Shown here: piece after piece, positions 1-36,833 of the stretch
Layout: each line of letters begins with the position of its first letter
Numbering within the stretch: position 1 is the first letter of the stretch
DNA from: a virus
Strand: one strand, 5' to 3'
IMG/VR virus record: IMGVR_UViG_3300034072_000461
Span: 1-36,833 of that record
DNA: 36,833 bases
Notes under the pieces: generated by a model
Told to the model about the DNA's origin: nothing
Database searches by the model: none
What the model saw: the letters and a program-made list of their open reading frames with translations, nothing else
Program-made: the position numbers and the translations under genes

Positions 1-260
1 TAGTGTCCCCCAATCGGAACCACTTGGCCCTAGCAAATACAGGCACTTAGCGCCGGTGTGCCAAGCTATCGCGCCAGACCCCCCGCCCCACAATCCGCGC
101 CTAGTGCGCCGCCGTAGGGGCATGATCTCTTGTATATCAATGGGTTAGGCTTTCCGCGCGGCTTAGGCGTTGCCGACGGCACCCCCTATGGGGGGAAGGG
201 GGGATCGACGCTCCGCGTTATCCCACTTCGGATTTTTGCAGCAAAACTAACCGACCCCCC

Positions 261-33905: not shown

Positions 33906-33920
33906 GTGATGTGGAACTAT
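33906..33920 (-). repeat. 15-base repeat copy downstream of RNA polymerase
   Basis: ATAGTTCCACATCAC on the minus strand begins one base from the RNA polymerase stop (TAATAG). It is identical to 36622-36636, upstream of the polymerase gene. Confidence 0.85.
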
Positions 33921-36415
33921 TAGGCGAACGTGTAGGTGGATTTCAGGATGGTCTTGAGGTCGAGCTCGCCCATGACTGGCGGCTTCGGCAGGCGATCTTC
34001 GATGTCCTCGATGTCGCCCTTGAGCTGCTCGACCAGCTCCTCGTAGAAGTCCTGGAGGACGTTGCCCTGGTATTGCTCGACCAGGGTTTCCCGCAGGATT
34101 TCCGCAAGGCGCGTGGTGTCAGCGGCATGGGTGCCGAAGCTGTCATGGATCACGGCGAGGTGGTTGATGCCCTCCTCCCGCGCGCGCAGGGCCACCGCTT
34201 GCAGGTGGCAGGCGTCGAGCGAGTGGACGAAGTTGGGCGCCACGCCGTTCGCCTGCTGGCGGCGGTTGATGCTCTGGCTGTCCACCTCGATCATGAGGTC
34301 GACACGCTGGCCGCACCAGTGCGCCTTCACCCGCTTGCCCTCCTGCTTCTTGTATTCCTGGAGGATCGGCAGGCCGAGCGGCGTGGTCCACCAGAGCGGG
34401 AGGTCCACCTCGGCGGCGACGGCGGCGGCATTACGCAGCCAGTCCATCGCCTCGGCCGCTGCCCGAACAGTGTGTCTAACGGAACTATAGATCACATGGG
34501 ACAGCCAGACCGACGCCTGGTAGTTGTCCGCTCCGCCCAGGTGCGGGGGCTCGCCCCGCCGCTCGGCTTCACGGTCCAGCTCCTTGAGCGTCTGGTGGAT
34601 CATGCCCTGCATCCCGAACCGGGTGGCCGAGTAGCAGAACGTCATGGTCGGGCGCTTGGCGATAGCGCGCGTGACCTTCCCGTTCATCCAGGGGTTTTCC
34701 ATCGTGACTTCCTCTCCCGTCTGGGGGTGGATGTAGGTGAACGTGGGGGTGGCGTCGGCCTCCTCCTGCGCTCGCCGCGCGACCTCGGAGTAGATGTCCT
34801 GCGGCTTGTCGGAGGGGACCAGGTTGACCGCCCTGCCCCCGGCTTCATCCCGGAGCATGGCCGAGAAGTGCTGGAGGCCGGAGCACGAACCGTCGAGCGC
34901 GATCGGGATGCGGCTCTCGTATTCGCTGGGGTCAGCCAGGGCCGTAGCGTCGGCCAGCTCCATGCAGGCCGCAAGGGCGCAGTAGGGGCTGTCGGCGGTG
35001 GTCCAGAAGCGTTCCCCATCGAGCGGGTTCATGCCGCTGTCGAGCAGCGCGGCGGCGTTCTCCTGCACCCAGGCGATCCGGTCGGCGAAGCTCACCTTGT
35101 CCACCCCGAACAGGTTGGCGGTGTGGACCATGAGCCAGCGCAGGCCGTCTTTCCCGAGCGGCTTGGCGTCGGCGAACTCGATCAGCGCCTTCTGCCAGTC
35201 CGAACCCTGCGGGCTCGGGCCGAACAGCGCAATCGGATAGACACGGCCCCGGAAGTCCAGCTCGTGCGGGTAGAAGATGCGATCCTCACCGGCGAACTTG
35301 CGGGCGACCCAGAGCCCCTGATGCAGGGACATACGGGCGGACACCCGCTCGGCGTTCCGCTGATAGACGGCGGCAGCCTCACGCTTCCACACAGCCTTCG
35401 CCTCCTCGTTCGTCTCGATGTCGACCGGCTTCTCCGGCAGGGGCTCGTCATGGCGGACCGGCAGTCCACCGAGGGTGCCGCCCTCGGTCCACACGCGGTC
35501 GATCACTTCGAGCACCCGCTGGTTCACCCGCCAGGGGGTGTCCTGGATGTGGTTCACGGCGGCGTAGACCGGCCGGATGTCGGCGTTGGCGAGCTCCTCG
35601 TGATAGGCGCGGTTGCGCTGCTTGATGAAGCGGTTGCCCGGACGGCGGGTCAGGTAGCCCCCGAACGTCGGGGTGCGCCACCGGCGGGGACGGATCACCA
35701 TCGGCAGGTTGATCGGCGCGAGTAGCGAGCACCGCGCGTGTTCCTCGTCGAGCCACTTCTGGAGCGTCTCGGCGGGGCGCACGGCGTAGGCGTGGCCGCG
35801 CGACCGGCGCACCTTCTCGATGGTGAACAGGCCGGTGCTCTCGACCACGAGCTCGATGCACTTGGTCCCGATCGCCACCTTCTCGTTGCTGGCGACCTCG
35901 ACCATCACGCCCTCGCTCGCAAAGAGCTTCTTCACGGCGCTCCGGCGCTGGCGGCTGTAGCCACGGGCGGCCTGCTTCTTGAGGTAGCCAGCGTAGCCGA
36001 CGCGGTTCTGTTCGCGGAAGGCGTGGAACTCCAGGTTCTCGATGATCGCCTCGGTCACGCGCAGCGCCGCCGTCTGGAGCAGCGACCCGGCGATGGACTG
36101 GTTCACCAGCACACGCAGCGTGAGGTAGGCGATCTCCTCGGGCTCCGTCAGGAGCAGGAAATCGGCGGCAAGGTGGCGACGACCGGCCTTCCCGGAGCAC
36201 ACCTCGGCGAGGAACTGGTCGACCGCCTCGGTCACGGCGGGGATGGCGACCTTCATCAGCCGCTTGCCGGGGGGCAGGTTCGCTTCCTCCTCGGGAGCGC
36301 CCGCCTCCACCTTCCACGGCAGCTTGCGGGCGTGATAGCGGCTCTGGCCGAGCGCGCGGCTCTCATCCTCCAGCTCGATCTGGCGGCGAATGAGGTCACG
36401 GGTAGCGTCGATCAT
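33920..36415 (-). CDS. Single-subunit phage RNA polymerase (T7 gp1-like)
   Basis: An 831-residue T7-type polymerase (T7 is 883) that transcribes middle and late genes from the phage promoters. Catalytic residues are visible: Asp508 in ALDGSCSGLQHF (T7 Asp537), Lys587 and Tyr595 in AKRPTMTFCY (T7 Lys631 and Tyr639), and Asp758 in IHDSFGT (T7 Asp812). DFRGRVYP and the terminal KSTYTFA match T7 patterns. The start ATG 36415 has a strong AAGGAAGGA site. It is the first gene of the phage, so host polymerase must make it, perhaps from a promoter in the upstream non-coding block or by read-through from the tRNA. A patch near 34465-34500 uses codons (AGT, AGA, ACT) unlike the rest. Confidence 0.95.
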   Translation of the reverse strand: MIDATRDLIRRQIELEDESRALGQSRYHARKLPWKVEAGAPEEEANLPPGKRLMKVAIPAVTEAVDQFLAEVCSGKAGRRHLAADFLLLTEPEEIAYLTLRVLVNQSIAGSLLQTAALRVTEAIIENLEFHAFREQNRVGYAGYLKKQAARGYSRQRRSAVKKLFASEGVMVEVASNEKVAIGTKCIELVVESTGLFTIEKVRRSRGHAYAVRPAETLQKWLDEEHARCSLLAPINLPMVIRPRRWRTPTFGGYLTRRPGNRFIKQRNRAYHEELANADIRPVYAAVNHIQDTPWRVNQRVLEVIDRVWTEGGTLGGLPVRHDEPLPEKPVDIETNEEAKAVWKREAAAVYQRNAERVSARMSLHQGLWVARKFAGEDRIFYPHELDFRGRVYPIALFGPSPQGSDWQKALIEFADAKPLGKDGLRWLMVHTANLFGVDKVSFADRIAWVQENAAALLDSGMNPLDGERFWTTADSPYCALAACMELADATALADPSEYESRIPIALDGSCSGLQHFSAMLRDEAGGRAVNLVPSDKPQDIYSEVARRAQEEADATPTFTYIHPQTGEEVTMENPWMNGKVTRAIAKRPTMTFCYSATRFGMQGMIHQTLKELDREAERRGEPPHLGGADNYQASVWLSHVIYSSVRHTVRAAAEAMDWLRNAAAVAAEVDLPLWWTTPLGLPILQEYKKQEGKRVKAHWCGQRVDLMIEVDSQSINRRQQANGVAPNFVHSLDACHLQAVALRAREEGINHLAVIHDSFGTHAADTTRLAEILRETLVEQYQGNVLQDFYEELVEQLKGDIEDIEDRLPKPPVMGELDLKTILKSTYTFA

Positions 36416-36473
36416 CGTTGTCCTTCCTTGTCAGGGATTGAGGCGCCGCTTCGCAGCGCCAAAGGTTCACAGG

Positions 36474-36492
36474 CCGAGGGTGCGGCCCAATC
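36474..36492 (-). promoter_or_regulatory. Phage RNA polymerase promoter P2
   Basis: GATTGGGCCGCACCCTCGG on the minus strand, one base off the consensus. It lies 72 bases downstream of P1 and directly upstream of the polymerase gene, so the polymerase could amplify its own transcript. A GC-rich hairpin follows, and both P1 and P2 leaders share TGAACYTTYGG. Confidence 0.8.
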
Positions 36493-36545
36493 GTGAGGGG
36501 TGCGGGGAAAGGGGGCAGCCCACGGCCACCGAAAGTTCACCACCG

Positions 36546-36564
36546 CCGAGGGTGCGTCCTAATC
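36546..36564 (-). promoter_or_regulatory. Phage RNA polymerase promoter P1
   Basis: GATTAGGACGCACCCTCGG on the minus strand, identical to P4. It is the first phage promoter after the palindrome cluster, and with P2 forms a tandem pair ahead of the polymerase gene. Confidence 0.85.
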
Positions 36565-36579
36565 GGCTGGTCTCGTGGG

Positions 36580-36644
36580 CTGGCACGATCGTGGCACAGT
36601 CGGGCGGTCGCCCACTGTTCTGTGATGTGGAACTATCGTGCCAG
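36580..36644. repeat. Nested inverted repeat
   Basis: Outer perfect 10-base arms CTGGCACGAT (36580-36589) and ATCGTGCCAG (36635-36644) enclose an inner hairpin of ACAGT and GGGCG pairing with CGCCC and ACTGT (36596-36618, one bulged base). The copy of the 15-base repeat lies inside, next to the right arm. Confidence 0.85.
36622..36636 (-). repeat. 15-base repeat copy upstream of RNA polymerase
   Basis: ATAGTTCCACATCAC on the minus strand, identical to the copy at 33906-33920. The two copies flank the RNA polymerase gene in the same orientation. Confidence 0.85.
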
Positions 36645-36656
36645 AACGTGCCGAAA

Positions 36657-36687
36657 GGTGTGCCAAAGCATCGTGCCTTGGCACACC
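36657..36687. repeat. Perfect inverted repeat GGTGTGCCAA / TTGGCACACC
   Basis: Ten-base perfect arms around an 11-base spacer that itself contains CGTGCC. The arm GGTGTGCCAA also occurs once at 55-64, at the other end of the phage. A dyad this size suits a dimeric DNA-binding protein. Confidence 0.85.
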
Positions 36688-36696
36688 CCGATCGTG

Positions 36697-36714
36697 CCAA
36701 GCGTAAATGCTTGG
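36697..36714 (+). terminator. Terminator-like stem on the plus strand beside the tRNA
   Basis: CCAAGC and GCTTGG form a six-pair stem with a six-base loop, followed on the plus strand by ATTTTCGTG then TTTTTT. It would stop transcription entering the tRNA from the phage side on the plus strand. It could instead be a third palindrome of the cluster. Confidence 0.5.
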
Positions 36715-36739
36715 ATTTTCGTGTGTTTTTTCAGGGATT

Positions 36740-36816
36740 TGGTAGCGGAGGAGGGACTCGAACCCCCGACACGCGGATTATGATTCCGCTGCTCTAACCG
36801 GCTGAGCTACTCCGCC
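36740..36816 (-). tRNA. tRNA-Met (CAT anticodon, elongator type)
   Basis: A complete 77-base cloverleaf. The acceptor strands GGCGGAG and CTCCGCT pair with a G-T at position 1-72, the anticodon stem GCGGA/TCCGC encloses the loop ATCATAA with anticodon CAT, the T-arm loop contains TTCGAGT, and CCA is encoded. Sequence and acceptor fit an alphaproteobacterial elongator methionine tRNA. I cannot exclude a CAU-type isoleucine tRNA from sequence alone. It reads leftward toward the phage RNA polymerase, with its 3' end facing the phage, as in tRNA-targeted integration sites. Confidence 0.95.
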
Positions 36817-36833
36817 CCATGGGCATCCGGCGT

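Follow-up and report, generated by a model that had tools for sequence, protein, structure and literature searches.

T7-like phages were long regarded as strictly lytic. In phage lambda, both the P and the P' arm of the attachment site contain arm-type sites, which are bound by the N-terminal domain of the integrase, and IHF sites are located between these sites and the core (PMC4880445). The temperate T7-like phages LUZ100, Pasto and HTVC019P carry a MarR-like gene, an integrase gene and the RNA polymerase gene in a row, and for LUZ100 a hypothesis of MarR-based control has been published (PMC10134795). In the T7-like cyanophages that integrate into tRNA-Leu the integrase gene is followed by an attP identical to part of the tRNA; neither stable lysogens nor a repressor were found for these phages, whereas the sphingomonad phages described below occur as prophages in genomes (PMC8776855 for the cyanophages). 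The arm-type site is a well-known kind of site; the case of a T7-like phage, however, we did not find described in the literature searched, the coverage of which mostly left out subscription journals.

Judged from its sequence, the stretch of DNA analysed here (36,833 nucleotides, henceforth the window) comes from a T7-like phage integrated in a sphingomonad chromosome; the integrase end of this prophage lies beyond the record, and attL is the only junction present. The long annotated genes (T7-like RNA polymerase, primase/helicase, DNA polymerase, portal, capsid, tail and terminase) are on the minus strand, and on this strand the host tRNA, the array that is the subject of this work, two promoter-like repeats and the RNA polymerase gene follow each other in this order. 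The tRNA-Met(CAT) was identified by ARAGORN at 36740..36816 (minus strand), and its 3' end represents the attachment core region of attL. Together with its flank, i.e. the last 17 bases of the window up to position 36833, it matches the chromosome of a sphingomonad (G265) with 100% identity over 95 nt; the tRNA query was matched in 396 of the 398 genomes of the family, G265 being the best. In the empty site of G265, unrelated host sequence follows the tRNA, so the divergence of the window sets in exactly at the tRNA 3' end. Since both the tRNA and the flank match host DNA, the right end of the window must be the phage-host junction, and the idea that the tRNA is encoded by the phage was dropped because of the host origin of the flank. 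A nucleotide search of phage records returned, among the matches listed, only tRNA matches.

The RNA polymerase gene adjoining the array is at 33920..36415 (minus strand; PHROG 414, E 4.9e-246), and the two promoter-like copies of the direct repeat D1 are at 36545..36565 and 36473..36493 (both minus strand). Similar sequences were found upstream of the RNA polymerase gene in relatives. Comparison of the left end of the window with relatives suggests that about 3.5 kb, the MarR-like gene and the integrase gene are missing from the record. The integrase is not seen in the window since the record ends short of the opposite prophage end; attR also lies beyond the record, and only one side of the att site is present.

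The array extends from 36580 to 36714 (135 bp), and, in agreement with the initial annotation, we found no plausible gene there. Exact GTGCCA/TGGCAC words start at six positions (36581, 36592, 36638, 36660, 36679 and 36694), and with two additional five-base GTGCC words at 36648 and 36673 the number of GTGCC/GGCAC words rises to eight, thus the cluster of about eight words noticed previously is real. Ten exact words are scattered over the rest of the window. When the whole window was shuffled 300 times with conservation of dinucleotides, the densest 135-bp cluster contained at most 3 exact words (mean 1.7) as compared to the 6 observed, and none of 5000 shuffles of 36580-36714 reached six words (mean 0.25). 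Two of the three dyads claimed for this region were confirmed (36580-36598/36626-36644, 84% complementary, and 36657-36670/36674-36687, 93%), while the third one, near 36697-36714, is weak.

Starting from the tRNA side, the first element is a degenerate IHF-like site (ATCCAAGCATTTA, 36704..36716, minus strand), at a place where relatives have WATCAANNNNTTR in the same register, -73 from the C element described below. The window copy contains two mismatches, so its function here is doubtful. It is followed by a TGGCAC word at 36694..36699 (TTGGCACGATC, minus strand), an inverted pair of putative arm words at 36672..36684 (GTGCCAAGGCACG on the minus strand, GTGCCANNTGGCAC at this place in relatives), a second TGGCAC word at 36660..36665 (TTGGCACACC, minus strand) and a CGGCACG word at 36647..36653 (minus strand), 10 bp before the C element. 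The word of the C element itself (TGGCACGATAGTTCC, 36638..36643, minus strand) is the best-conserved part of the array. Two distal TGGCAC words are on the plus strand, at 36592..36597, shifted relative to relatives, and at 36581..36586. The inverted pair is 2 bp tighter than in relatives and the distal words are displaced; it is possible that the array of the window is a diverged or weakened arm. Between the C element and the distal words the window has a hairpin-like stretch (36596-36625), which relatives lack there. Two other identities considered for the C element were set aside: in a sigma-54 promoter (TGGCAC-N5-TTGC) the -12 GC would be replaced by CC, CG or CT, and the -24 GG is missing from the L007 locus, and for a host promoter no convincing -10 was seen.

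Relatives were collected from phage contigs and Sphingomonadaceae genomes by RNA polymerase searches; several loci share contigs, and the statistics were meant to count each phage once. The initial annotation had proposed to look for the array in related prophages, and we found the same array in about 20 related T7-like phages, either just past a tyrosine integrase gene or with an intact tRNA (Gly, Pro, Ala or Ser) as its neighbour. Contigs spanning the region contain a MarR-like gene, a tyrosine integrase gene, a tRNA-end sequence, the array, a promoter and the RNA polymerase gene in a row. The complete chromosome G030 has one prophage of about 42 kb with both junctions present: tRNA-Gly, the array and the RNA polymerase gene are at one end, the integrase gene and a 14-bp tRNA-end repeat (TCACCCGCTCCAGA) at the other. 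The mean density of the words is 8.4/kb near the integrase stop and 0.5/kb elsewhere, a 16-fold difference, and the words are concentrated there in all 15 phages of 15; six of seven relatives without an integrase at this place have no words in the 1 kb upstream of the RNA polymerase gene. The distance of the array is 128-163 bp from the integrase stop and 146-1601 bp from the RNA polymerase start (7 phages).

The spacing within the array is rigid. In most phages there are words near -43, -35, -10, 0 and +30 relative to the C element, and, as the C element serving as the anchor of the layout was picked by pattern, only the remaining positions count as independent evidence. A perfect IHF consensus occurs at -73/-74 from the C element in 7 of 19 relatives but in 0.4% of random windows, and if up to one mismatch is allowed, in 10 of 19 relatives and 1.1% of random windows. 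In relatives with a complete attP or attR the core is flanked by arm words on each side. In several relatives (L003, L004, L009, L030, L072, L075 and L077) the words of the P arm are part of the integrase gene, within its variable C-terminal codons. In S2B, an isolated Caulobacter phage whose genes are related, the integrase gene is likewise followed by TGGCAC words and an IHF consensus.

Some loci show different arrangements. In L071 (5541-5777) another phage occupies the same tRNA-Met gene with its integrase end toward the intact tRNA, so that its core has the opposite orientation to that of the window. Genes resembling antirepressors (Rha/KilAC in L007) separate the array from the RNA polymerase gene in L007 (304-1029) and in L027-L029. 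In L021 (5998-8632), which is from a Sphingomonadaceae MAG, a truncated RNA polymerase gene runs into integrase fragments beside a tRNA-Ser; this locus is apparently a decayed prophage.

Most likely, the array at 36580-36714 represents the P' arm in the attachment site of a lambda-type integrase, present here as attL, with the GTGCCA/TGGCAC words as its arm-type sites. The observations on which this reading is based are the host junction, the link between integrase and att, the rigid layout, the two-sided words and the IHF consensus in relatives, and the domain plan of the integrase. One of the possibilities listed initially was an attachment site with binding sites for an unseen recombinase, and it is this suggestion which the host junction and the association with integrase and att strongly support. 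The integrases of the relatives contain a Phage_integrase domain. In the structure model, which was predicted from shallow alignments (23 sequences), a b-b-b-a N-terminal domain is followed by core-binding and catalytic parts, and the best PDB match of the model is full-length lambda integrase. We infer that the integrase is the protein which binds the words, and that the words serve integration and excision. The GTGCCA/TGGCAC words would be bound by the small N-terminal domain of the integrase, and its catalytic part would work on the core within the tRNA 3' end. Between the core and the array, where many relatives have an IHF consensus, the DNA would be bent, and the arm folded back in this way would allow integrase subunits to bridge core and arm.

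It is useful to compare this arrangement with the known systems. The locus resembles the P' arm of lambda attP (PMC4880445) in that short words are repeated next to the core, with a candidate bend site separating the two and words on both arms, and also in the integrase, which has an N-terminal domain similar to the arm-binding one. It differs from lambda in the word itself (TGGCACGAT), in the presence of an inverted pair and a tandem pair, in belonging to a T7-like phage and in the tRNA core, and the arm sites are putative here. LUZ100, Pasto and HTVC019P share the order of MarR-like gene, integrase and RNA polymerase (PMC10134795), but we did not see a GTGCCA arm array in them. In LUZ100 (L137, 3800-4048) CGACAC/GTGTCG words flank a perfect IHF consensus after the integrase gene, an analogous arm layout with another word, and the gaps between the integrase and the next gene of Pasto and HTVC019P are without a clear arm array.

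Besides the integrase and attR lying outside the record, the mismatches of the IHF-like site and the displaced distal words of the window, one further finding speaks against a pure arm-site reading. As reported in the initial annotation, the arm word GGTGTGCCAA recurs at 55-64, and this copy proved to be a member of a conserved pair of words 13 bp apart (11-13 bp across relatives), which forms a second cluster at 55..78 (TGGCGCGATAGCTTGGCACACC, minus strand). The cluster is kept in relatives (at 448 in L068, 353 in L072, 647 in L075, 559 in L077 and 475 in L078); a conserved TTTTGCTGCAAAAATCCGAAG element follows the terminase gene, and the cluster is located some 150 bp beyond it. It is not part of att, and the function of arm sites leaves it unexplained. 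At the matching place S2B has a 259-bp terminal repeat, and the second cluster may belong to the virion end.

The alternative that survives best is that the GTGCCA words are operators of a MarR-like regulator, which represses the early promoter and the RNA polymerase gene and thereby keeps lysogeny. The promoter-like repeats and the RNA polymerase gene come directly after the array, the MarR-like gene always precedes the integrase gene in relatives, and a MarR-based control through sites on either side of the polymerase promoter has been suggested for related phages (PMC10134795); the recurrence of the word at a second, non-att place would also fit. We nevertheless think this unlikely. The sites are not tied to the promoter, the array stays beside the integrase gene even when it is up to 1.6 kb away from the RNA polymerase gene, and in phages with such a distant array it is a TTCC-type motif that recurs near the RNA polymerase promoter, not the GTGCCA word. 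Moreover, S2B keeps the GTGCCA word while its TTCC-type motif has changed. The repressor operator array suggested previously is therefore not favoured for words which remain with integrase and att rather than with the polymerase promoter. Binding of the array by a host regulator could be considered as well, because similar words are common to phages of several sphingomonad genera and of Caulobacter, but sites tied to the integrase gene, rigidly spaced and present on both sides of the core make this very improbable, and nothing indicates a host protein. We give practically no chance to a packaging or virion-end element, in spite of the word at 55-64 near the probable virion end and the terminal repeat of S2B there, as in S2B and in the integrase-bearing relatives the array is kilobases inside the genome, between the integrase and RNA polymerase genes; of the termini-related role suggested earlier, only the part concerning the 55-64 copy may hold.

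Returning to the arm-site reading of the array, the TTCC-type motif overlapping it appears to be a separate element. In the window this 9-mer (GATGTGGAA / TTCCACATC, 36624..36632, minus strand) directly follows the C element, and a second exact copy of TTCCACATC is found just past the RNA polymerase stop. In the prophage of N. lindaniclasticum TTCCACTAG is the most over-represented 9-mer (11 copies vs 0.24 expected), and TTCCACAA-type words head the list of over-represented words in G030; in shuffles neither occurred more than once. S2B has TTGCGTCA at matching places, 13 copies compared to at most 2 in shuffles. The att arms, the region past the RNA polymerase stop and the spaces between early genes contain such sites, mostly oriented along transcription (forward/reverse 10/1 for TTCCACTAG, 9/3 for TTCCACAA[AG] and 11/2 for the S2B variant). 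Matches within the RNA polymerase gene were not used as proof, they may reflect conserved protein sequence. Dispersed phage-specific variants of the motif (TTCCACTAG, TTCCACAAG and TTGCGTCAG) were seen in L131-L133, L129-L130 and L136.

From its distribution, the TTCC-type motif may be the operator of the MarR-like regulator, and the copy at 36624-36632 seems a better operator candidate than the GTGCCA words. The MarR-like protein encoded beside the integrase would be the natural candidate to bind it. The motif, though not the GTGCCA word, resembles the stoperators of mycobacteriophage L5 (PMC9283540) in being asymmetric, dispersed, mostly aligned with transcription and often intergenic, but it is also present in the att arms, and its binder and roadblock role are putative. 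It is likewise only the TTCC-type motif that can be compared with the sites of phage 186 Apl (PMC7498355), a single motif being shared by att and the early promoters, as would suit a protein that is both regulator and excisionase; the Apl sites, however, are direct repeats one helix turn apart, whereas the TTCC-type sites are single and dispersed, with a putative binder. Tentatively, we propose that temperate T7-like phages might use one dispersed, phage-specific set of TTCC-type operators for a MarR-like repressor, distributed over both att arms, the gaps between early genes and the region following the RNA polymerase gene; stoperator-like roadblocks would hold lysogeny and the same protein would influence excision at att, a scheme we regard as possible rather than probable.

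The array described here bears on how integrase-bearing T7-like phages integrate, excise and are kept silent. With its arm word, IHF register and dispersed companion motif, the conserved att layout opens the integrase complex and the candidate repressor of these prophages to direct tests, and it helps to locate attachment sites and prophage ends in sequence data.
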